From contig JAIBBZ010000019.1 in assembly GCA_019694435.1 (NCBI GenBank), forward strand, positions 1-64,000: 64,000 nucleotides of DNA, written 5' to 3'. Source of the DNA: Pirellulales bacterium (GTDB lineage Bacteria > Planctomycetota > Planctomycetia > Pirellulales > JAEUIK01). How positions within the stretch are numbered: position 1 is the first letter of the stretch; the number at the start of each line of letters is the position of its first letter. Under the pieces are notes generated by a model. That model saw only the letters and a list, made by a program, of their open reading frames with translations. It did not search any database and was not told where the DNA came from. The position numbers and the translations under genes are program-made. This document shows, piece after piece, positions 18,534 to 33,324 of the stretch.

Positions 18534-20327
18534 TCATGTTCGTAGTTGCCGGTCCTTGCTGCTTAGCAGCGGGGACTCGGGCAAGGCGCTACCAGGGGCA
18601 CTTCTGACGAACCCTGCTGGCGATCGTCGCCGAGCAATTGCCAGCAGACCGACCAGCGCCAGGCTGGCCAGGAAGGCGCCCGCAGGTTCGGGGACCACCG
18701 TCGTAAACAATCCTGAGCTGCCGTCGGTAAAGGTCACGGACAGGACCAACTTGCCATGCTCGTTAAAGAACCGCGGCAACCCATCGGCTCCGGTGGACTG
18801 TGGGCCATTGGGAGTGTCGAAAAGGCTGACCTGTCGCAGGTCGAGACCAGGACCTGGATCGACGTCGAGCACGTCCCCTTTGCGAATCAGCACCGAGAGA
18901 GACCCGTCCATCCAGAGCAAGGAGGCAATGTTGTTGTCGAACGTCACTCCAGTTCCTTGCAACCGCACGCCCAGCAGGACGCCGTGTTCCAAGGTGATCG
19001 AGCCCAGGACATTCTGGATGACGACGCCCGAGGGCAGACTCGAAATCGTCGGATAGTTCCCTTCGCGCATGACGAGGTCGATCCCGTCGTCCGTCACTCG
19101 CAACACCGCTTGGTCGTTCGCGCCCGTCACGCCGGCGCCGGCCAATTCGGTAATCGCGTACAGCTCGCCCGTGTTCGATCGCAAGCCCTGGAACGGCAGA
19201 GTGAAGCTCGAGATGGTCACGCCCGCCCCCAGCCCGGGCCCCAGCGGACCATCGGTACCTGAGAGGATCATGGGTTGTGGCGATCCGCCCGGCTCGATCT
19301 TCCAAGCGCCGCGGATGGTGTTATTCACCTGTCCGATAAAGCTCAGTTCGCCGTCGTCGTTGATCAAGACCGGCGACATGCTGTTGAACGTGCCAGGGAT
19401 TCCTGGTCCGAGCGGGCCCGTCATGCCCGTCTGCTGAACGACTTGAGCGGCGTTGTAATCCTTTACCTGCCACGCGCCATTTTGGGTGAAAAACGTGACG
19501 TCGCCGCCGGTAACGAGGGCGCGAAAGGCAACGTCCCCTGCCCCGCTGGCGGCCAGCCATTCGCCACTGGGAAACCCGGCGAAGACGGCGCTCGAGGGGA
19601 GGCCAGGGCCCAGCGCTCCGACCACGCCACTGCGGGCGATCGGCGTTACACCGGCGGCGGATGCTTGAAACAGCCCCAGGCGATTCGCAGAGTCTACGCC
19701 GGCGCCCTGCAGCGGCGAGACCCACGTGAAGACCCCATCGGCCGTGAATTGCGTGATGTTGTCGGTGTGATCGTTGAGCGGGAAAAGATCGAACTCAACT
19801 CCAGGCCCGAGATTCGGGCCGAGGGGACCATCGGTATCGAGTAGCGCAACAGCTTGCGGAGCGGTCATATCGGTGTCGATAAACAATCCGGTACCGTTGA
19901 CGCCAGGTCCGTTGTAGTGACCGCTAAAGCCAACGGCGCCGTTTTCACTCAAGATCGGTCGCCCCAGGCCAGTGAAGGTCGCGCCGGCGATGTCGGGTCC
20001 AATCGTCCCGCCGGCTCTTTCGCTTGCGACCAGGCTGATTTCGCCGCCGGGAGCAACCTTCCAGATGGCGTTATCGACGCGGTCTTCGGCCGTCCTGGTT
20101 GAAGCGCGAAAGGCAATCTCACCGTTGTTGTTGATCGTCGGAAACGACAGTTCCGGCAAGAACTCAGTCCCTGGTCCGAGGTTCGGACCGAGCGGACCGT
20201 CCGTACGCGTGAGCGCTATGGGCGTAAACTCGTATTCGGAAGCCGCGGCGGTTGAAGTCAGAGCCGACAAACACATGACGACGTGCGACCAAGCGAGGCA
20301 CCGGCAATCGAATCGTTTCACGAGCAA
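18534..20327 (-). CDS. Repeat-containing PEP-CTERM surface protein
   Basis: This 597-residue exported protein has a signal peptide (about 1-29). It contains about six repeats of 56-68 residues, starting near residues 41, 105, 165, 233, 301 and 357. Each opens with a G-[PT]-[LI]-G-P-x-[LI] motif (TDGPLGPNLGPG, VVGALGPGLPSS, MTGPLGPGIPGT) and usually contains a polar NxxGEIxF-like strand (NNNGEIAFRA, NDDGELSFIG). This resembles a planctomycete and cyanobacterial family of tandem-repeat surface proteins probably forming a propeller or solenoid; function is unknown. The PEP signal (VVPEPAGAFLAS, then RRR) is followed by about 29 extra residues, which is unusual. The gene stands alone and reads toward the tRNA. 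Confidence 0.75.
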   Translation of the reverse strand: MLVKRFDCRCLAWSHVVMCLSALTSTAAASEYEFTPIALTRTDGPLGPNLGPGTEFLPELSFPTINNNGEIAFRASTRTAEDRVDNAIWKVAPGGEISLVASERAGGTIGPDIAGATFTGLGRPILSENGAVGFSGHYNGPGVNGTGLFIDTDMTAPQAVALLDTDGPLGPNLGPGVEFDLFPLNDHTDNITQFTADGVFTWVSPLQGAGVDSANRLGLFQASAAGVTPIARSGVVGALGPGLPSSAVFAGFPSGEWLAASGAGDVAFRALVTGGDVTFFTQNGAWQVKDYNAAQVVQQTGMTGPLGPGIPGTFNSMSPVLINDDGELSFIGQVNNTIRGAWKIEPGGSPQPMILSGTDGPLGPGLGAGVTISSFTLPFQGLRSNTGELYAITELAGAGVTGANDQAVLRVTDDGIDLVMREGNYPTISSLPSGVVIQNVLGSITLEHGVLLGVRLQGTGVTFDNNIASLLWMDGSLSVLIRKGDVLDVDPGPGLDLRQVSLFDTPNGPQSTGADGLPRFFNEHGKLVLSVTFTDGSSGLFTTVVPEPAGAFLASLALVGLLAIARRRSPAGFVRSAPGSALPESPLLSSKDRQLRT

Positions 20328-21152: not shown

Positions 21153-21182
21153 TTGCAGGGAGAACCTTCCTTGAGTGGCCCG

Positions 21183-22556
21183 ATGCGCAATCTGATCTGC
21201 TCCGAGGCGCAGAGCGCACTTTCGCTCAGTCGGCGGGCTTTCTTGCAAGTCGGAGCCATCGGCTCGGCCGGATTGACTCTGGCCGACGTCCTGCGCGCCG
21301 ACGCACGCGCCGCGGCATCGGGTGCGGCGAGCGCTCGTAAGAGCGTCATCATCCTGTGGTTGCGCGGCGGTCCAAGTCAGCACGACATGTGGGACCCCAA
21401 GCCCGAGGCCCCCAGCGAGATTCGCGGCGAGTTTGCGCCCATTGCCACTGCGGTACCGGGCGTCCAGGTTTGCGAGTTGTTGCCGCAATGCGCCCGGATC
21501 ATGCACAAGTGGTCGCTCATCCGCAGCCTGCACCACCGCCCCGAAGACGGTGACGTAGGCCATTCGAACGGCGACCAGATTTGTTTCACAGGCTACGCAT
21601 CGGGGCCGAATCCCGATATCAACATCATGCCCAGCTGCGGCTCGATCGTCGCGCGACAGCAACAACGGCTGGATCCGAGCTTGCCGGCCTATGTGGTGAT
21701 TCCGAAAGTTGCGCCCGGCATGGGGGCTGCTTATTTGGGCGCCGCCTGCAATCCATTCGAGACCGTCGCCGATCCGGCGATCGATTCGCCTTTTCGTGTT
21801 CGCGACTTTGCCCTGGCCGAAGGCCTGACGTCGGCACGCGTGCAGCAGCGCGGCATGTTGCGCAGCGCGCTGGATCGCATGCGGCCCATCGGCGCGACTG
21901 CTGAGACGGACAAGTTTCACGCCCAGGCGTTGGACATCGTCGCCGGCGGCGCGGCGAGCGCGGCGTTTGATCTGGAAAGCGAGCCGCAACACGTTCGCGA
22001 ACGTTACGGCATGATGCCGACCTTCGATCCGGGCGATCCTATGCGGTGCGGCTCGAAGAATTGGGCACAGCGGATGCTCTTGGCGCGGCGGCTGATCGAG
22101 GCTGGCGTGCGGATCGTGACGGTCGAAATGCGCTGGTGGGATTTCCACAAGCAGGGATTCGACTCGCAGCGTCGCGGGTTCTTGCCCCGCTTCGATCAGG
22201 CCTATTCCGCCTTGATCGAAGATCTTGAGCAGCGCGGGTTGCTGGAGTCGACCTTGGTGGTCGCTTGGGGAGAAATGGGGCGGACGCCGCGCGTCAACAA
22301 GGACGCAGGTCGCGACCATTGGCCGCAAGTGTTTTCGGCGGCTCTGGCCGGGGGTGGCGTGCAAGGGGGCCGCGTCATCGGCGCGTCTGATCGCACCGGA
22401 TCGATCCCCAAGGACAATCCCAAATTGCCGCACGACGTGCTGGCCACGATCTATCAGCATCTGGGCGTCGACACGCGCGCCCAATACACCGACACGTCAG
22501 GCCGTCCGCACGTCGTCTTGCCGCAGGGCGAACGCGTTGCGGAGCTATTCTCTTGA
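21183..22556 (+). CDS. Tat-exported DUF1501 protein
   Basis: This is a protein of about 457 residues of the DUF1501 family, which belongs to the alkaline phosphatase/sulfatase superfamily and is expanded in planctomycetes. It has a Tat-type signal (LSRRAFLQVGAIGSAGLTLA). Family motifs include VIILWLRGGPSQHDMWDPKP, RSLHHRPEDGDVGHSNGDQ, VAWGEMGRTPRVN and GRDHWPQ. These correspond to metal-binding and active-site regions of the fold. The ATG at 21183 is listed; TTG at 21171, preceded by AGGGAG at good spacing, is a real alternative. DUF1501 genes are usually paired with DUF1549/DUF1553 cytochrome-like genes; none is adjacent here. Substrate is unknown. Confidence 0.85.
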   Translation: MRNLICSEAQSALSLSRRAFLQVGAIGSAGLTLADVLRADARAAASGAASARKSVIILWLRGGPSQHDMWDPKPEAPSEIRGEFAPIATAVPGVQVCELLPQCARIMHKWSLIRSLHHRPEDGDVGHSNGDQICFTGYASGPNPDINIMPSCGSIVARQQQRLDPSLPAYVVIPKVAPGMGAAYLGAACNPFETVADPAIDSPFRVRDFALAEGLTSARVQQRGMLRSALDRMRPIGATAETDKFHAQALDIVAGGAASAAFDLESEPQHVRERYGMMPTFDPGDPMRCGSKNWAQRMLLARRLIEAGVRIVTVEMRWWDFHKQGFDSQRRGFLPRFDQAYSALIEDLEQRGLLESTLVVAWGEMGRTPRVNKDAGRDHWPQVFSAALAGGGVQGGRVIGASDRTGSIPKDNPKLPHDVLATIYQHLGVDTRAQYTDTSGRPHVVLPQGERVAELFS

Positions 22557-23310
22557 GCGGCCATCACGCCGGACCGCCGATGCAAGTCGTTGCTGAGACG
22601 CCCTGTGCGCAATGCGTTGCGAGGCCGATTTCGACGATTTATGAAGCGCTGTGAATCGTCCTGAGCTGGGAGATCGTGAACGGCTGGAAAGTCACCCCGA
22701 TCTCGCCTCGGCGCATTTGGGACGAACAATGGTCGGCCTCGAGCCGCTCGGCCTTGGCGTTATCGGTTTGGCCGCTGCCAAATTGTCCCCCGAGTAGGAA
22801 TCGACCAAGTGGTGGCGCAAGGTTGGCCGGTCACCGCTTCGATAGCTCGACAGATCCCAGACGGTCGCTATAGCTCGATGGCCTGCTCCGCGCTCGTGAG
22901 CCATGCGTGAATCCCCTGGATGGTCCCGGAGCGAGCGGATAGCAGATTCGACGCGGACCGAGGTCTTAAGAGGCAGCCTCGCGGTCAGGCCCAATGGGTT
23001 AGCGCTTGGTTCTCCTGCGATACTGTCGCACGGAGCAACGCCCGGCGCGCGCTTCGCGTCGGTTGGACGGAGCGACTTCTGGACGCGGCGCACCGCGAAC
23101 TCGGGGGGGCATTCGCGCGCAATACCTGCACTGTCACCCTGTTTCGATGCGTGCACAAGCGCACCTGCCGGCTGTTGTGGAAGCCTGCTGCGTGATCGGC
23201 GGGCAACCAAGTTAAGGGAACTTCAGTCTAGCCGTGTTGGGTGGCCGGGGTGTGCGAGCTAGAATTTCGGTATCCGCCGAGAACACGGCGGACCCCACCT
23301 CCTCCTCCGC
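22557..23310. other. Intergenic region before dabA
   Basis: This 754-bp stretch shows no convincing gene. Frames on both strands are short on hydrophobic cores and rich in Arg and Ser. A promoter-like element for dabA lies at its right end. No repeats or RNA structures stood out. Confidence 0.4.
23237..23265 (+). promoter_or_regulatory. Candidate promoter of the dab locus
   Basis: TTGGGT (23237-23242) and TAGAAT (23260-23265) are separated by 17 bp. This would give a transcript starting near 23272, about 39 nt before the dabA GTG. The -35 match is only partial. Confidence 0.4.
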
Positions 23311-26300
23311 GTGACTGAAGCCCCAGCCGTGCAAGAAGCCTCGAAGCTCGCTTCTGGCCATGTATCGTCAGAAGCTCATTCCCTGCAGGCGCATTCGCTG
23401 TCTGAGCTGATCGAACATGCGACGCATGTTCTGCCAAGCCAGGGCCCCATTTCCGTCTTCGTCCACCACAACACGCTGCACGCCTTGGAGCAACTGCGCT
23501 TCGATCAGGCGGTGTTGGAAGGGTTGAAGGTCTACGGCGGCCAGCCCTATCTGCCGGAAAGCGCGTACCGGCAGATGGTTGCCCAAGGGCGCATTCGCAC
23601 GACCGACATCGCGGCTGTGTTGCTCGACGACCTGCAGGATTCGGCCGACGAATTGATCGGCTTCATGGGCACGCGCTATGCCTTGCGCCGCGCGATGCTC
23701 GAGTATCCGCTCCTGTTCGGTTCCGATGCCGAGACCCGCTGGCTGATTGCCGAAGGCGACGCACTGCGGTGTTTCCGGCCGGAGACGCCCGAGCCGCTGC
23801 GCCGGCAGGCGATCGAGGAGGCCCGGGGCTGGGTCATGGTGTATCTGCACGCGGGCCGCGAGCAGGTCGACCATCACATTCGCGGCGCGGTCGACGAGCT
23901 GCTGCACACCTTCGGCACGGCATCGATCGAGTCGTGGAGCGAGGATCGCTGGGAATCGCTCACGCTGCATCTGTTGTGGCGGATCTGCATGCATGGCGTG
24001 CACGGCGTGCCGCGGATCGAGACCCACCAGCCGCTGGTCCGTCACCGCGATGTGCTCTGGCAGGCGCGGGGGCGCGATATTGACCTGCTGGTCAACCCGT
24101 TGCTGATCCAGTTTTGCGCCGCATTTCTCGATCAAGGTTTCGCCATTTGGCAGGTTCCCCGGCGCGACGCCGGATTCCTGGAATCGTTCAAGGCGGTGCA
24201 CGGCCATTCGCGCTGGTTCGATGCGGGCTGGCTGCGAGACTTGCCGGCCGAGTTGGCCCAGATCGAGTCGTCGCGTGAGGGTGCACTGGCCTCGATCAAA
24301 CGCTCGCTCGAGCTGCTGGGAGTCGAGCCGGGCGAGGCAGGTGACTACATCCAAGAGACGCTGCTCGCGCTGCCGGGCTGGGCCGGCATGCTGTGGCAGA
24401 TGGAAACTAACGCGGAATGGACAGTGCGTCCTGCTCCGCCTGGCAGCCTGGTCGAATATCTCGCGGTGCGGCTGGTTCTGGAACGCCTGGCCCTGCGGCA
24501 TTATGTGCCGGAAGCGCGGCGGGGCGCGATCGAATTGCGGCGCTTGCGCAAGTATCTGCGCCGGACACAGCCGCGCGAGCCGCGTGTGCACGTCGAGCAA
24601 CGCGCGCATCTGGTTTTCCAGTTGGCCCAGTTGCGCGGGTGGAGCCTGCGCGAATTGCTCAGCATGTCGAAGCCGCAATGGACGTGCCTGGTGCAGGAGA
24701 TCGAGTCGTTCCCCGGCTTGGAGCGGCGGCGAATTCTGCACCTGGCGTTCGAGCGTCGCTATCGAACTCAGGCGCTCGACGCGCTGTACATGCACAGTTC
24801 GCGCCCGCTGCCACCCGTCGAACAGCCGACTTCGTTTCAACTGGTGACCTGCATCGACGATCGCGAAGAATCTTTCCGCCGGCATTTGGAGGAAGTCGAT
24901 CCGCGTTGCGTGACCTACGCCATGGCCGGCTTTTTCGCCGTGGCCATGTACTATCGCGGCGCGGCCGACGCCCACTATCGCCCCTTGTGTCCCGTCGTGA
25001 TCAAGCCCAAGCACTTCGTTCGCGAAGAGCCGGCGTACTCGTTAAGGGCCGCCAATCGGCAGCGAGCCCAGACGCGGCGCGTGCTGGGCACCGCGTCGCA
25101 CCGCTGGCACCTGCAGAGCCGCAGCTTCTTGGGCGGTTTCCTCACGGCGCTGTTCGGCTCGTTGGCGTCGATGCCGTTGGTGGCCCGGATCATGTTTCCC
25201 CGGATTACGGCCCAGCTGCGGCGCGCGTTCGGCGAATTCGTGCAGCCGCCGCCGGTCACCGAGCTGACGCTGCTGCGCTATCAGGACCCGCCCAACCAGG
25301 AGCCCGAACATCATGGCTATTCGTGCGACGAGATGGTGGCGTGCGTCGAGCGCGTGTTGCGTGACATCGGCCTGACTCACGATTTCGCGCGGATTGTGAT
25401 TGTCCTGGGGCACGGTTCGTCGAGCCTGAATAACCCGCACGAATCGGCGTATAACTGCGGCGCGTGCAGCGGCGGTCTGGGCGGCCCGAACGCGCGGGCG
25501 ATCACCAAGATGGCGAACGATCCGGTGGTTCGCGAGCGGCTCGCCGAGCACGGGCTGTTGATTCCGGACGATACGGTCTTCGTCGGCGGCTTCCATAACA
25601 CCTGCACCGACGAAGTGACGTACTTCGACCTGGACAGCATTCCTGTGCCGCATCGGGCCGAATTCGAGGCAGCCACTGCGGCGATCGACGAAGCTCGGGC
25701 CCGCAATGCGCACGAACGGATTCGGCGTTTCGTCTCGGCCGACCTCTCCTTGACCTCTGCGCATGCGCTCGACCACGTGCACGAACGGTCGGAAGACCTG
25801 TCGCAGGCGCGGCCGGAATACAATCACGCCACGAATGCCATGTGCATCGTCGGCCGCCGGTCGCGCACGCGCGGCCTATTCCTCGATCGCCGTGCCTTCT
25901 TGAGCGATTACGATCCGACGCAGGATGACGAACAGGCGTCGATCCTGGCCCGGATTTTGGCGCCCGCGATTCCGGTTTGCGCAGGCATTAGCCTGGAATA
26001 CTACTTTTCGTGCGTCGATCCGGCGGTCTATGGCTGTGGTTCGAAACTGCCGCACAACATCGTCTCGCTGCTGGGCGTCATGGAGGGGGCCGCGACAGAC
26101 CTACGGCCCGGCTTGTCGCAACAGATGATCGAGATCCACGAGCCGTTGCGGATTTTGTTCGTCATCGAGACGACGCCCGAGGTGATGCTGCGGCTGATCG
26201 ACGCGAACCCCGTGATTGGCCAGTTGATTCGCAACGAGTGGGTTCAATTGGCCACGCTGTCGCCCGATGGGCCGACGATTCACGTTTATGAACGAGGCGT

Positions 26301-26460
26301 GTTCAAGGAATACGAGGTCGAAGACGGGGAACTGCCCAAGGTGGCGCGATCGCTCGATTGGTATCGCGGGCGCCGCGGTCACCTGGGCATTGCCGTGATC
26401 GAACCCGAGCCGGAAAATCGCGGTAACGGCGTGACGGAAGGAGCGTTGCATGGATCTTGA
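23311..26460 (+). CDS. dabA: DabA-type inorganic carbon transporter subunit (DUF2309)
   Basis: This 1049-residue protein is the large cytoplasmic subunit of DAB-type inorganic carbon pumps. These couple CO2 hydration to an ion-translocating membrane partner and accumulate bicarbonate. The zinc-site residues known from Halothiobacillus DabA (Cys351, Asp353, His524, Cys539) correspond to Cys514-X-Asp516 ([11 protein letters not shown]), His701 ([11 protein letters not shown]) and Cys716 (YNCGACSGG). C-to-D (2) and H-to-C (15) spacings are identical. About 160 extra residues precede the site. [13 protein letters not shown] near residue 920 is another family motif. The start is GTG at 23311. The stop overlaps the next gene by 11 bp, indicating translational coupling. 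Homology is clear; transport activity is inferred. Confidence 0.9.
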
Positions 26461-27835
26461 CCTGATCTTCAACTGGCTGGGGATCGTCGTCGTTGGCGCA
26501 CCGACGCTGTTGATGGCGTTGATGGGGCTCAGCTACCTGGTCAATCAACCGCTCAGCGAACACGCCTTGTCGCGCAGCACGCAGATTGCGGTGATGACCG
26601 GTCTGGTCGCGGCGATTGCCGTGCTCGTGTTGATGCTGGTGACAGGAGTCCGCTTTGTGCCGATCGAATTCGGCAATTGGGTGGTGATTCCCCAGGAGCA
26701 TTTTCATTTTCATTTGAAGATCGTCTTCGATCGCCTGTCGGTGCCCTTTTGCATCCTGATTTTCGTGCTGGTCGCCACGACCGGCGCGTTTGCCAATCGG
26801 TATCTGCACCGCGAGCCCGGCTATGGTCGGTTCTTCATGCTCTACTCGTTCTTCCTGCTGGGCATGGTGCTCGCGGCGCTGGCCGGCACGATCGAGACCT
26901 TGTTCCTCGGCTGGGAACTGGTGGGGCTGTCGTCGGCGCTGCTAGTGGCCTATTTCCACGAACGCCGGTCGCCGGTCGTCAACGGGCAGCGTGTCTGGTC
27001 GGTCTACCGCGTCGCGGATGCGGCCTTTCTCGGGGCCGCCGTGCTGCTGCACCACCTGCGCGGAGAGGGCGACTTCATGGCGCTGATGGGCACCGGGCCA
27101 TGGCCCGAGGGTGCCGCGACGCTGTCGCCCCGGGCAGCGCTGCTCGTCGGCTCGCTGCTGTTGCTGGCAGCCGCGGGCAAATCGGCATTGGTGCCTTTTT
27201 CCGGCTGGTTACCGCGCGCCATGGAAGGTCCGACGCCGTCCAGCGCGATTTTCTACGGCGCTCTATCGGTCCACCTGGGCGTGTATCTGCTGCTGCGCGT
27301 CAGCCCGCTGCTCGATCTTTCGCCGACGCTGCGCGCGATGGTCATTATCCTGGGCCTGGCGACGGCGCTGTTCGCTTCGGGCGCGGCGAGCGTGCAAAGC
27401 GATATCAAGACGGGCCTGGCCTTTGCCTCGCTCACGCAGGTCGGCATCATCACCGTCGAGATCGGCCTGGGGTTCCGCTACCTGGCCTTGGTGCACATCA
27501 TCGGTCACGCCTGCCTGCGGATGCTGCAATTGTTGCGGGCCCCGACGTTGATCCGCGACTACCACTCTCTGGAAAACGCCATTGGCGGGCGGCTGCAGCA
27601 TCGGCCCAGCCGGTGGCTGCTCTGGTTGCCCGAACCGCTGCAGTTGCGGCTCTATCGCTTGTTCATCGAGCGCGGTGAGCTCGACGCGCTGCTCGACCAG
27701 ATCGTGGCGGTCTGGGTCGGCATGTTCCGCTTTTTCGACACCTGGGAGCGGCGCTGGACCGACTGGCTGTCGGGCACGCGCTCGCGCGAATCGGATCGCA
27801 TCGCCAGCGGACGCCCGGTTGAGGACCTGCGATGA
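26450..27835 (+). CDS. dabB: DabB-like membrane subunit (NuoL/MrpA antiporter-like)
   Basis: This 461-residue integral membrane protein has about a dozen predicted helices. It belongs to the proton-translocating family shared by NuoL, MrpA and DabB. Key charged residues appear conserved: Glu in [20 protein letters not shown] (helix 5) and Lys in [20 protein letters not shown] (helix 7), followed by the family motif [15 protein letters not shown]. In DAB systems this subunit carries cation flux that powers DabA. The ATG lies inside the end of dabA (11-bp overlap) and the stop overlaps the next gene (ATGA), so all three are translationally coupled. The C-terminal tail (about 380-461) is soluble and charged. 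Confidence 0.88.
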
Positions 27836-29424
27836 TTCAACTGCATCTGCCCTGGCTCGAGTTGTCGATCCTGTTGCCGCTGGTGGGCGCGCTGGCGGTA
27901 TTGCGACTGCGCGATCCTGACGATGCGCGCCGCGTGAGCCTGGTATTCAGCGGCCTGTGCCTGCTGACATCGTGCGGCGCCTGGCAGGACTTTGCTCTGC
28001 TGCATACCTACGAGGCACACGACCGCTGGGACGTCATCGAGCGGGTCTTCGGCGAAGACCTGCTAGTGATCGACGAGCTGAGCGCGCCGCTCTTGTCGCT
28101 GGGGGCCTTGATCTATTTTCTCACGTTGCTGGCGACCATGCGGACGAAGATTCGCCGCTTCTCGTTTGCCAGCACGTTGCTGTCCGAAACCATCTTGTTG
28201 ATGATCTTTTCGTGCCGGCAGCCCTGGGCAGTCGTCGCGATGCTGGTCGTCGGTACGATTCCGCAATACTTCGAGCTTCGGCGCCGGCTGAAGCCCACGC
28301 GCGTGTATGTCGTCCACATGGTGGCGTTTGCCGGGCTGCTGCTAGGCGGTCAAACGCTGGTGACGATCTCGAGCCAGGGTTCCTACTGGAACACGGCGGG
28401 CATCATCGCGTTGACGTTGGCCGTGTTGCTGCGCAACGGCGTCGTGCCCGTGCACTGCTGGATAACCGATCTGTTCGAACACGCCAGCTTCGGCGGGGCG
28501 CTGCTGCGGGTGACGCCGATGGTCGGCGCCTATGGCGCCATGCGGCTGGTGTTTCCCATCGCGCCCGATTGGGTGTTGCATAGCATCTCGATCCTCTCGT
28601 TGGCGACGGCCATCTACGCCGCGGGTATGGCCCTTGTCCAGATCGAGGCGCGGCGGTTTTTTACCTACGTATTCCTCAGCCATTCGTCGCTCGTGCTGGT
28701 GGGGCTGGAACTGGCCACCCCCATCGGTCTGACCGGCGCGCTCTGCGTGTGGCTCTCGGTGGGACTGTCGCTGACCGGCTTCGGTCTGACGCTCCGGTCG
28801 ATCGAGGCTCGCACCGGACGGCTTTCGCTGGCCGAATTCCACGGGCTCTATGCCCAGGCACCCGTCCTCGCGACGTTTTTTCTGTTGACGGGGCTGGCGA
28901 GTATCGGATTTCCGGGCACGGTCGGATTCGTGGGCACCGAGATGCTGGTCGAAGGTGCGGTGATGGCCGCGCCCTGGATCGGCGCGATCGTCGTGGCGAC
29001 CGCCGCGTTGAACGGCCTGGCGATGCTGCACGCTTACTTCCGCGTGTTCACGGGCGCGACCCATCCGGCGACCATCGACCTGAACGGCCGGGCGCCGGAA
29101 CGCTTCGCCATTTTGATGCTCACGCTGTTAATCCTGGGCGGCGGGTTGTGGCCCCAGCCCGGTGTCGTGTCGCGCTATCACGCCGCCGCCGAGTTGGTGG
29201 CGGCGCGGCAGCGGCACAACGGAACCTCGGCTCCTCAGCACGTCGCCCAAAACGCCGACGCGGAGCCGAAGGGGCAGGCCACTGGCGCCGAATCAGTCGT
29301 GCATCAGCTTCCAAACGATCTCGGACAACACGGCGACGAGCAGGTGATCGCGCTCGGGCGAGGCCTCGCCGACCTCTTGATGCATGAAACGCTCGCCCGA
29401 CCAGACGATAAACCAGCTGAGTAG
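27832..29424 (+). CDS. Second antiporter-like membrane subunit of the dab locus (NuoM/MrpD-like)
   Basis: This 530-residue multi-helix membrane protein resembles the NuoM/MrpD/NuoN branch ([40 protein letters not shown]). It is clearly different from the preceding subunit. The helix-5 Glu expected in pumping subunits is not evident: the corresponding region reads [16 protein letters not shown]. The helix-7 Lys position appears to be Arg ([10 protein letters not shown]). The start overlaps the previous stop as ATGA. After about residue 450 the sequence becomes a hydrophilic, low-complexity tail. The final 132 bp are antisense to the 3' end of the convergent TetR gene. It may be a structural or second ion-conducting partner; this is inferred. 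Confidence 0.8.
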
Positions 29425-29907
29425 CTCGGTCTTCTCAGGCGGCAGTTGCGATCGCCGCTGTTGCAGGCTCTGGCCGATGATCTGGGCGATGCCGGCGAGC
29501 GTGTCGCGCCACGCCTGGCGCATGTCGAGATCATACTCGGCCAACTCGATGATCGCCGCCACGACCGCGCGGTGCTGTCGCCACAGGACAAGAATCCGGT
29601 GGAGCCCCTGCTCCAGGTCGTCGCGGCTGGCCAGCGGATCGGTCAGGAACGGTGCGGCGATCTCGGTCCAGGCGGCGGTGATGTCCTGTGCGAGCGCCGC
29701 GATCAGCTCGCGCTTGGTGTGGAAGTGCAGGTAGAATGTCGCGCGGGACACGCCCGCGGCGACGGCGATCCGCTGGATGCTGAGCTTGGCGAAGGCTTCT
29801 CCGCCGGCGAGCAGCCGTTCGGTGGCGTTGAGAATGTGCTGGCGGGTCTGGGCGCGGCGATCGGGATCGCTCGAAGAAGTGACCGTGACGCTACGAGGAT
29901 TTGCCAT
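29293..29907 (-). CDS. TetR-family transcriptional regulator
   Basis: This 204-residue regulator has an N-terminal helix-turn-helix ([20 protein letters not shown], then [19 protein letters not shown]). A helical ligand-binding C-terminal half follows ([33 protein letters not shown]). The start at 29907 is chosen because it directly precedes the DNA-binding domain; the frame is open far upstream, but that part is antisense to the GH2 gene. It is convergent with the dab locus and overlaps it by 132 bp. It is divergent from the GH2 gene 129 bp away, which is its most likely target besides itself. Confidence 0.9.
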
Positions 29908-30036
29908 GGAAGCGGGAAGCAGTTGCTTCCGATCGAACACTAGAGGAATATGCTCATCCACCGAACGGCTGGACGGCGCGTCATACTGTTGAGCCCCCGT
30001 CGCCTGCCGCAGCTGCGCATCCCAGGAACTGCCGAC

Positions 30037-31872
30037 ATGAGATGGCGTGAACCCGCATGGCTGTTGTTGCTCGTCGCTGTTGCAGGCCCAGGGCTGTTTC
30101 AGCCCGCTGGAGCCGCGGTCCGCGCAGCCGAGCCTTTCAAGACTCGCATGCTCACGGCCTGGGGAGCCGAAGTCAGGGCGGACAACGCCTGGACTGAGTA
30201 TCCCCGACCTGCGCTGGTGCGCGAAGGGTGGAAATGCCTGAATGGCGCTTGGGATTACGCCGTCACCGCCGATTCCGAGACCCAGACGCCCGCGCATTGG
30301 CTGGGCCAATTGCTCGTGCCGTTCGCGCTCGAATCGCGGTTGGGCGGCGTGCAGCGGCTGCTCGAAGCCACCGAGGCGCTCTGGTACCGGCGCACGGTGT
30401 CGTTGACCCCGCAGCCTGGCCGCCGGGTGCTGCTGAATTTCGAAGCGGTCGACTACCGTTGCGACGTCTATGTCAACGGCGAACAAGTCGGATCGCACCA
30501 GGGCGGCTTCACACCTTTCTCGTTCGACATCACCCAGGCAGCGCGGCAGGGCGATAACGAAATCGTCGTGCGCGTGACGGACAAGACCGAAGACTGGCAG
30601 TTGCGCGGCAAACAGGTCCGTAAGCCCGAGGGAATCTGGTATACGCAAGTTTCGGGCATCTGGCAGACAGTTTGGCTGGAAGAGGTCGCGCCGACGTACC
30701 TGGTCGAGTTGAACGTCGACACGGACGCCGCGGCCGGCACGATCACTGTCCGGCCCGAGCTGGCCGGCGACGCGACCGGCACCAGGTTGCGGCTGCAGGT
30801 CAAGGACGGCGACCGGGTCGTGGCCGAGGCCCAGGGCAGCGCTCAGGAACTGGCGGTCCACGTCGCCGACGCCCAACTCTGGTCGCCGCAATCACCCCAC
30901 CTCTACGATCTGGAGGTGGCGCTGATCGATGGCCAGGGGCAGGTGCTCGACCAGGTGCAGGGCTATGCAGGGATTCGCGATGTGGGCAAGGTTCGGGACG
31001 CTGCCGGCAAATGGCGGTTCACGCTCAACGGCAAACCGTTGTTCCACTGGGGCACGCTCGATCAGGGCTGGTGGCCCGACGGACTGCTGACGCCTCCATC
31101 CGACGCGGCGATGCGGTCCGACATCGAATTCTTGAAGGCCGCCGGCTTCAACATGATCCGCAAGCACATCAAGGTCGAGCCGCGGCGATACTATTACCAT
31201 TGTGACCGCCTGGGGATGCTCGTCTGGCAGGACCAGGTGAGCGGCGGCGAGAATCCTCCGTGGACCCGGCTGAAACCAGATCCGGTCGACGCCAACTGGC
31301 CCGAAGCCGAGCATGCGCAGTACATGACCGAACTGGAGCGGATGATCGATCTGCTCGAAGAGCATCCGTGCATCGTGGTCTGGGTGCCCTTCAACGAGGC
31401 CTGGGGACAGCACCGCACCCTCGAGGTCGGGCATTGGGTTGCCCGGCGCGATCCCTCGCGGCTGGTGAATATTGCCAGCGGCGGCAATTTCTGGCCGGTC
31501 GGCGACGTGGTCGACGCGCACAACTATCCCCATCCAGGCGAGGATTTCGGCGACCGTTATCCCGAATACATTGAAGTAATCGGCGAGTTTGGCGGTCATG
31601 GCTGGCCGGTCGAGGGGCATCTTTGGGACCCGGATCGGCGCAACTGGGGCTATAGTTTGGCCAAATCGAAAGCCGCGCTGCTCGAACGCTACGGCCAGTC
31701 GATCGAGCGGCTGAACCGGTTGCGCAAACAGGGCGTGGCCGCGGGCGTGTATACCCAGACGACCGACGTCGAAGGCGAGGTCAACGGTCTGCTGACTTAC
31801 GATCGCCAACAGGCCAAGCTGTCGGCCGAGGAACTGGCCAAACTGCATCAGGTGTTGTTCAACGATAACTAG
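30037..31872 (+). CDS. Secreted glycoside hydrolase family 2 protein
   Basis: This 611-residue enzyme has a signal peptide (about 1-25, ending AGAAVRA). The GH2 layout is complete: sugar-binding domain (ALWYRRTVSLTPQPGRRVLL; NGEQVGSHQGGFTPFSFDIT), immunoglobulin-like domain, and TIM barrel. The predicted acid/base is Glu454 (PFNEAWGQH) and the nucleophile Glu517 (VIGEFGG). GH2 covers beta-galactosidases, glucuronidases and mannosidases; the sequence read by eye does not fix the substrate. The start is ATG 30037, next to the signal peptide. The lyase gene follows after 21 bp, suggesting an operon. Confidence 0.88.
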   Translation: MRWREPAWLLLLVAVAGPGLFQPAGAAVRAAEPFKTRMLTAWGAEVRADNAWTEYPRPALVREGWKCLNGAWDYAVTADSETQTPAHWLGQLLVPFALESRLGGVQRLLEATEALWYRRTVSLTPQPGRRVLLNFEAVDYRCDVYVNGEQVGSHQGGFTPFSFDITQAARQGDNEIVVRVTDKTEDWQLRGKQVRKPEGIWYTQVSGIWQTVWLEEVAPTYLVELNVDTDAAAGTITVRPELAGDATGTRLRLQVKDGDRVVAEAQGSAQELAVHVADAQLWSPQSPHLYDLEVALIDGQGQVLDQVQGYAGIRDVGKVRDAAGKWRFTLNGKPLFHWGTLDQGWWPDGLLTPPSDAAMRSDIEFLKAAGFNMIRKHIKVEPRRYYYHCDRLGMLVWQDQVSGGENPPWTRLKPDPVDANWPEAEHAQYMTELERMIDLLEEHPCIVVWVPFNEAWGQHRTLEVGHWVARRDPSRLVNIASGGNFWPVGDVVDAHNYPHPGEDFGDRYPEYIEVIGEFGGHGWPVEGHLWDPDRRNWGYSLAKSKAALLERYGQSIERLNRLRKQGVAAGVYTQTTDVEGEVNGLLTYDRQQAKLSAEELAKLHQVLFNDN

Positions 31873-31893
31873 CGCGCAAGCCAAGGTCTTTCC

Positions 31894-33324
31894 ATGTCGC
31901 AGGACGGCAGCAGCCCGTTTGGCAATTTGTTTCCCTATGCCAGCCGCTTTGGCGTGGCCACGCGCTTGCCCGAGCGGGGGCTGGCGCAAGCGGCGATTCT
32001 CGATCAGTTGCGGCAGATGAGCCGCGAAGAAAACGCCTGCTGGCAGCAAGGCAAGTGCTCGGGCACGATGTACGGCGGCGACGCCGAGCATTTTCGCTTT
32101 CTGAACGAGGTATTCGCGTTGTTTTCGCACATGAACGCCATTCAGCGCGACATGTGCCCCAGCGCGACTCGATTCGAAAGCGAGATCGCCGCGATGACGC
32201 TCGACTTGATGCACGCCGGCGCCGTAGCCGACGGCAGCGAGCCTTGCGCGGCAGTCACCTCGGGCGGCACCGAGAGCATCCTTTCGGCGCTGCTGGTCTA
32301 TCGCGAACGAGGCCGCGAGCGCGGGATCACTGCCCCGGAAATCATCCTACCCACCACGGCGCACGCGGCGTTCGAAAAGGGGGCCTGGATGTTCGGGCTC
32401 AAGGTGGTGCCGGCCCCCATCGATGCGGCGACAACGCTGGTCGATATCGATTTCGTTCGCGATCAGATCAACGATCGCACCGTCGCCTTGATCGGTTCGG
32501 CCGGCAACTATCCCTATGGCACGATCGACCCGATCGACGAGCTGTCGAGCCTGGCCGTTGAACATGGCATCGGGCTGCACGTCGACGCGTGCCTGGGCGG
32601 GTTCATCCTGCCGTTCGGCGAAGAGTTGGGCTACGACATCCCGGCGTTCGACTTTCGCCTGCCGGGCGTGACGAGCATTTCGGCCGACACGCACAAGTTT
32701 GGCTTTGCCCTCAAGGGTTCGAGCGTCGTGCTGTATCGCGACCGCTCGTTGCGCCGGCACCAGTATTTCACCAGCGAGGCCTGGTCGGGCGGCAAGTACC
32801 ACTCGCCGGGCATCCAGGGCAGCCGCTCGGTCGGCATCCTGGCCGCCACGTGGGGGGCGATGATGAGCCTGGGCCGCCCGGGCTATTTGCAGCAAGCGCA
32901 GGCCATTTTCGAGACGAGCTTTGCGATGCAGGACGTGGTGCGGCGGCACGCCGAATTGCGGATCCTGGGCAAACCGTCGTTCTGTTTCACGTTTAATTCG
33001 GAGCCGTTCGACATCTACCACATCAACGACTTCATGAAGCAGCGCGGCTGGCGGTTCAACGGCCAGCAGTACCCCAACGCCATTCACATGTGCGTCACGC
33101 GCCCGCAGGCCCAGCCCGGCGTCGTCGAAGCGTTCGAGCGCGACCTGGCCGAAGCCGTGGCCTACGGCCACGCGCACGCCGACCAGATGCCCGCATCGGC
33201 GGCCGTCTACGGCGGACTCCCCGGCGGCGACCTGCCCGAAATGCGCGAGTTCGTGCAGGAAGCCTTGTTCGTGCTCATGGACTCGATGATGGAAGTGCCC
33301 CAGAACGAACGCGTCGCGCCCTGA
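31894..33324 (+). CDS. PLP-dependent lyase, sphingosine-1-phosphate-lyase-like
   Basis: This 476-residue fold-type I pyridoxal-phosphate enzyme is of the group II decarboxylase/sphingosine-phosphate lyase family. The PLP lysine is Lys268 in SISADTHKFGFALKGSSVVL, close to the eukaryotic lyase pattern. TSGGTESILSALL binds the cofactor phosphate, and HVDACLGGFILPF holds the conserved Asp. Characterised relatives split long-chain-base phosphates into a fatty aldehyde and phosphoethanolamine. No membrane anchor is visible. It follows the GH2 gene by 21 bp. Whether the host makes sphingolipids cannot be read here; an amino-acid decarboxylase role is possible. Confidence 0.82.
   Translation: MSQDGSSPFGNLFPYASRFGVATRLPERGLAQAAILDQLRQMSREENACWQQGKCSGTMYGGDAEHFRFLNEVFALFSHMNAIQRDMCPSATRFESEIAAMTLDLMHAGAVADGSEPCAAVTSGGTESILSALLVYRERGRERGITAPEIILPTTAHAAFEKGAWMFGLKVVPAPIDAATTLVDIDFVRDQINDRTVALIGSAGNYPYGTIDPIDELSSLAVEHGIGLHVDACLGGFILPFGEELGYDIPAFDFRLPGVTSISADTHKFGFALKGSSVVLYRDRSLRRHQYFTSEAWSGGKYHSPGIQGSRSVGILAATWGAMMSLGRPGYLQQAQAIFETSFAMQDVVRRHAELRILGKPSFCFTFNSEPFDIYHINDFMKQRGWRFNGQQYPNAIHMCVTRPQAQPGVVEAFERDLAEAVAYGHAHADQMPASAAVYGGLPGGDLPEMREFVQEALFVLMDSMMEVPQNERVAP

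Follow-up and report, generated by a model that had tools for sequence, protein, structure and literature searches.

A type-2 DabA operon with two antiporter-like membrane subunits in a Pirellulales genome: a candidate DAB complex with a second subunit split over two proteins

Within the window, the 64,000-nucleotide stretch of a Pirellulales genome analysed here, a dabA gene forms a single tight unit on a common strand with the genes of a NuoL-like subunit (B) and a NuoM-like subunit (C; Table 1). On balance, and with modest confidence, we favour an explanation of the whole as a type-2 DAB complex for proton motive force (pmf)-driven CO2 hydration, in which C supplies in trans the half-channel that is missing from B. 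A cytoplasmic, zinc-containing DabA resembling beta-carbonic anhydrases (beta-CAs) would sit on a membrane domain divided between B, contributing NuoL TM1-11 with the cytoplasmic half-channel, and C, contributing a second half-channel through its TM9-13 bundle and E370. In type 1 the second half-channel would consist of DabB TM12-13 and the finger residue Glu444 of DabA, and in type 2 it would come from C, which would replace a lost part and add no second path. Protons would pass through B and then C, and their motive force would drive the one-way hydration of CO2 to HCO3-, which could feed carboxylases in a bacterium that does not use the CBB cycle. No earlier description of such a split of roles between two membrane proteins appears to exist.

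The three open reading frames, their positions and their overlaps of 11 bp and ATGA, as given in a sequence-only reading of this DNA, were confirmed by reading the letters directly. The dabA product matches the Pfam profile PF10070 over its full length (1-747 of 747; 790.7 bits at a cut-off of 25), and the top NCBIfam match of C is NuoM, over residues 9-448. DabA, B and C are each 46-70% identical to their counterparts in other planctomycetes, and a type-2 dabA followed by two antiporter-like genes was found at 51 loci; the three-gene arrangement is therefore far beyond chance. The operon holds no redox arm, and the genes around it within 21153-33324 are unrelated by Pfam. The gene of a TetR-family regulator on the minus strand (29293-29922) converges on C, and the two share about 130 bp at their 3' ends.

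Table 1. Positions in the window of the dab operon, its diagnostic sites and its Pfam-assigned neighbours.
Feature	Position	Strand	Details and basis
DUF1501 protein	21153-22556		Pfam
dabA, type 2 (PF10070)	23311..26460	+	GTG start, 1049 aa
Codons C514 to R518 (DabA2 C351, D353, R355)	24850..24864	+	alignment
DabA membrane 'finger' segment, residues 605-629	25123..25197	+	alignment, approximate inside finger
Codons H701 to C716 (DabA2 H524, C539)	25411..25458	+	alignment
H839, at DabA2 Leu658	25825..25827	+	true beta-CAs have Gln/His there
dabA/B overlap, 11 bp	26450..26460	+	read directly
B, NuoL-like subunit	26450..27835	+	461 aa; PF00361 131 bits, and PF00662
B C-terminal tail helices, residues 395-441	27632..27772	+	match NuoL region after TM12-14 (lateral-helix region)
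B/C overlap, ATGA, 4 bp	27832..27835	+	read directly
C, NuoM-like subunit	27832..29424	+	530 aa; PF00361 82.5 bits
C TM9-13 bundle, residues 251-410	28582..29061	+	better-conserved half; within part fused to B in f45 group
C E370, TM12 acid at NuoL D400 position	28939..28941	+	alignment
GH2 glycosidase	29950-31872		Pfam
PLP decarboxylase	31894-33324		Pfam

The gene set had been put forward as novel in the sequence-only reading; however, it was already published in 2017. In its parts on these operons, the COGNAT report (PMC5700660) states that operons in which a DUF2309 gene precedes nuoL frequently include COG1008 (NuoM) and COG0659 (SulP), and it puts forward the idea that how many ions are moved depends on how many membrane genes are present. 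Its 'clade C' ybcC operons have the same DUF2309-nuoL-NuoM arrangement as the window and often, although not universally, include SulP, which does not adjoin the window operon. What these parts report are gene neighbourhoods, whereas the truncation of B, the residue exchanges, the fusions and the five-gene array come from the present analysis. The homologous system with a known structure is DAB2 of Halothiobacillus neapolitanus (DabA2/DabB2; PDB 9rd0, 2026; PMC13144422). A further relative, MpsAB(C) of Staphylococcus aureus, is a DAC homologue supplying inorganic carbon; it is described as MpsAB and not as a complex with two antiporter-like subunits, and is set apart from the window operon by this description.

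DabA loci with their flanks were collected from genome samples and by a search for relatives, all open reading frames in them were called, and 156 DabA proteins were aligned; many of the loci are MAG contigs. After removal of near-duplicates 148 proteins remained, 39 of type 1 (the DAB2 kind) and 109 of type 2 (window included), in proportions favouring type 2 since the search for relatives started from the DabA of the window itself; the Pfam-based genome samples are free of that bias, but the loci fetched from them were hand-picked. In the DabA tree, from which the fragment L104 was omitted, the two types are fully separated (support 1.0, branch 0.70). They also differ in gene order. Type 1 is a two-gene B-A unit in 35/35 complete contexts, whereas type 2 occurs as A-B-C in Planctomycetota and Myxococcota-type genomes and as a five-gene array, U-A-B-C-D, in Gammaproteobacteria and Magnetococcales. 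The complete type-2 contexts comprise 39 A-B-C, 24 U-A-B-C-D, 9 A-B, those of the two DabA in a tandem Thiothrix locus (U-A-B-A-B-C-D) and a handful of odd ones. The claim of a coupled unit with two antiporter-like subunits thus holds across phyla, and absence of the third gene from most orthologous loci, for which these contexts were checked, was not seen. Type-2 loci with no visible C are L270 (truncated B), L103 and L238 (dabA alone) and L100 (only U and dabA). Among type-2 loci a SulP permease adjoins 25/47 with three genes and 10/28 with five, compared with 1/36 type-1 loci, which fits a role in inorganic carbon supply; none was found within 8 kb of the window operon.

The window DabA has the full-length PF10070 domain and a beta-CA-like zinc site formed by C514, D516, R518, H701 and C716, at the positions of the zinc ligands C351, H524 and C539 and the D353-R355 dyad of DabA2 (PMC13144422). 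The zinc-site Cys, Asp, His and Cys are kept in 156/156 aligned DabA proteins and the Arg in 155/156. The spacing had been called identical to that of DabA2, which is correct locally (C514-x-D516-x-R518; H701-x14-C716), but the Cys and His motifs lie 187 residues apart compared with 173 in DabA2. Homology with DabA2, indicated at E 2e-71 and accompanied by the same ligands, the same dyad and a NuoL-like partner, rests on sequence: a Foldseek search of the AlphaFold model of DabA (pLDDT 82.6) against the PDB returned only noise (best E 0.19), with the DAB2 entries not among the matches.

Three further sites separate the window DabA from DAB2. Firstly, position 356, Ser in type 1, is Glu in the window and in 113/117 type-2 rows. 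Secondly, the finger segment is free of acidic residues, whereas that of DabA2 carries Glu444, a residue that stands in for NuoL K399/D400 (PMC13144422). Position 444 is acidic (Glu/Asp) in 38/39 type-1 rows compared with 7/117 type-2 rows; Methylococcales and L263 retain an acid near this position. Thirdly, Leu658, strictly conserved in 150 DabA2 homologues (PMC13144422) and present in 39/39 type-1 rows, is His839 in the window and His or Asn in 117/117 type-2 rows. With His, the site again holds the kind of residue on which true beta-CAs rely in the transition state; according to the DAB2 Leu658 mutants, however, this site alone is insufficient for free carbonic anhydrase (CA) activity (PMC13144422).

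The resemblance of this His to freely reversible beta-CAs, together with the frequent SulP neighbours of type-2 loci, could point to the reverse mode, in which DabA dehydrates HCO3- imported by SulP, and B and C export ions, powered by the accompanying energy or charge change. An exergonic reaction driving ion export was proposed in the COGNAT report, in its parts on these operons (PMC5700660), and the NuoL ion pair E144/R175, lost in DabB2, is still present in B. However, the window operon lacks an adjacent SulP, for DAB2, the relative with a known structure, the proposed mode is pmf-consuming hydration of CO2 (PMC13144422), and DAB2 with Gln at 658 had no free CA activity in vitro (PMC13144422). 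We therefore regard reverse operation as improbable and, because the zinc site is intact and SulP neighbours are common, we infer hydration of CO2 as the reaction of the favoured type-2 DAB complex.

According to hydropathy and one model, B consists of TM1-11 and an amphipathic tail and lacks TM12-15. DabB2, with 15 TM, follows NuoL in TM1-11 (PMC13144422). At 47/48 three-gene loci no further TM follows TM11 of B by hydropathy, whereas nearly all type-1 DabB proteins have 3-4 TM beyond it. With 11 TM and a C-terminal helix, the model of the window B (pLDDT 83) superimposes on E. coli NuoL residues 1 to ~570 with Z 38-43 and an rmsd of 3.3-5.0 A over 408-422 of 461 residues, and its tail aligns to the NuoL region just past the missing helices. 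The window operon hence departs from the DAB2 type, a single 15-TM DabB whose gene precedes dabA in the sampled type-1 loci, in having the order A-B-C instead of B-A, a B with 11 TM downstream of dabA, and an added third subunit. The window B keeps E156, R187, D190, K244, H349 and H353, and three-gene B proteins keep NuoL E144, R175, D178, K229, H334 and H338; E144, K229, H334 and H338 are conserved in 48/48, 48/48, 48/48 and 47/48 rows, respectively. Tyr replaces NuoL H254 and Arg replaces NuoL K342, in the window as in three-gene B generally, and E144 is lost in nearly every type-1 DabB row. B thus retains the catalytic group of a proton-pumping NuoL, but is devoid of the TM12-15 region including the TM12 Lys, K399.

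C is a full-length NuoM homologue with about 14 TM by hydropathy, but its N-terminal half is degenerate: the TM5 Glu, TM7 Lys and TM8 Lys positions are occupied by Val, Arg201 and Val, the Arg for Lys exchange being shared by 42/46 three-gene C rows. Together with the displacement of the TM12 acid by one residue, to E370, these three changes distinguish C from proton-pumping NuoM/MrpD. Conservation of C is highest in TM8-13 (0.61-0.62), lower in TM3-7 (0.49) and lowest in TM1-2 (0.39), and the last ~70 residues are unconserved. An acid at position 370 is present in 45/45 three-gene C homologues (35 Glu, 10 Asp), a count that omits an unrelated 676-aa protein at L200.

These features bear on two other roles for C. 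A second ion path had been proposed in the sequence-only reading; taken as independent, so that two ions would cross per CO2 hydrated, it would agree with the full-length homology to NuoM, with the COGNAT proposal, made in its parts on these operons, that more membrane genes entail more ions (PMC5700660), and with the two fully competent NuoM-like subunits of the five-gene relatives. Given the loss of the TM5 Glu, TM7 Lys and TM8 Lys from C, the proposal is unsupported; the conservation peak in TM8-13 and the missing last four helices of B likewise count against it, and we consider it unlikely. A scaffold or assembly subunit outside the proton path would suit the loss of most antiporter catalytic residues and the unconserved C-terminal tail, but the conservation of a membrane acid at a known functional position, retained even where B is fused to a C-like segment in the planctomycete group f45, makes such a purely accessory role doubtful.

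Natural fusions of B with C, or with part of C, are of two kinds. At L086 (8994-12023) and L267 (3684-7172, minus strand) B and C are fused in one open reading frame. In a planctomycete group, f45, the operon is a two-gene A-B unit whose B is 657-669 aa long and carries a C-matching segment after the B tail; 8 of the 9 type-2 A-B contexts are of this kind. In one f45 family the segment matches C residues 219-420 with an HHalign probability of 97.3% (E 1.6e-11), so the part of C that is retained is the C-terminal helix bundle; a second fusion family matches C weakly (26% probability). HHalign found no match of the fused segment to B or to type-1 DabB. The f45 fusions carry an acid at the E370 position (FVGED, LAWEYLL). 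Contrary to an early idea, loss of Glu444 and a separate C gene do not strictly go together: f45 two-gene loci lack Glu444 and have the C-like half on B, and some five-gene loci keep an acid. In one planctomycete group (L196, L197, L198), two divergent type-2 dabA-B pairs lie back to back, each with a long B bearing a C-like half. A type-1 DabB-DabA fusion also exists in nature, as a 1367-aa open reading frame at L228 (3835-7935).

For C acting in trans we count the absence of TM after TM11 in B, the loss of the 444 acid, the invariant acid at E370, the B-C fusions and the conservation of TM8-13; against it we count the loci without C, the 444 acid in Methylococcales and L263, and the His at position 370 of five-gene C. 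Moreover, B retains its own TM9-11, and C therefore need not complete B exactly as proposed. That A, B and C assemble together is likewise our inference. The matter is of wider interest since ideas on how DAB couples proton flow to CO2 hydration draw on a single structure and a single key glutamate. Here nature offers an experiment on this coupling, in a branch from which that glutamate and the partner's last helices have been lost and which seems to have regained both from another protein.

The five-gene relatives combine one DabA with four antiporter-like subunits and occur in Methylococcales, Thiotrichales, Magnetococcales and Rhodocyclaceae (L080, L089-L092, L095, L098, L106, L108, L109 and many of L237-L254). 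At each of the four NuoM catalytic positions the residue is retained in both U (27/27) and D (23/23), and C has His instead of an acid at position 370 in 24/25 rows. A Thiothrix locus (L236, 1333-15417) has a tandem U-A-B-A-B-C-D order, with two DabA-B pairs in one run of antiporter genes. A literature search of incomplete coverage found no earlier description of the array, so it may have been noticed before. The sequence-only reading had placed the window operon as intermediate between DabAB and Mrp/Complex I. Compared with NuoL and NuoM of complex I, however, B lacks TM12-15, C lacks the catalytic NuoM Lys and Glu, and the operon lacks a redox arm; a better description is a DabAB whose second subunit has been split. 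The five-gene type is a closer fit to such an intermediate because U and D keep every NuoM catalytic residue, and it is possibly a complex-I-like carbonic anhydrase pump. More tentatively than the trans arrangement itself, and with slightly less than even confidence, we propose that type-2 DAB is a separate branch of pmf-driven carbonic anhydrases whose channel spans two proteins and whose key acid has moved from the finger to the third subunit, and which in gamma-proteobacteria has grown into a complex-I-like array of four antiporter-like subunits on one CA, two of them with all catalytic residues of a functional pump. If so, multi-antiporter arrays resembling complex I would count among the DAB-type pumps, and such arrays could allow a pump to sustain a higher bicarbonate gradient.

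The genome (6.13 Mb, 98% complete) encodes one DabA and five PF00361 proteins, namely B, C and three clustered on another contig that are presumably NuoLMN. It is heterotroph-like, as had been claimed, with no RuBisCO large subunit found by Pfam. The only beta-carbonic anhydrase found by PF00484 lies away from the dab operon, beside a SulP permease (G000:C18:22-1129, minus strand). Elsewhere in the window (18534-20327, minus strand), a large secreted-looking protein has a C-terminal end resembling a PEP-CTERM sorting signal (VPEPAGAFLASLALVGLLAIARRR).
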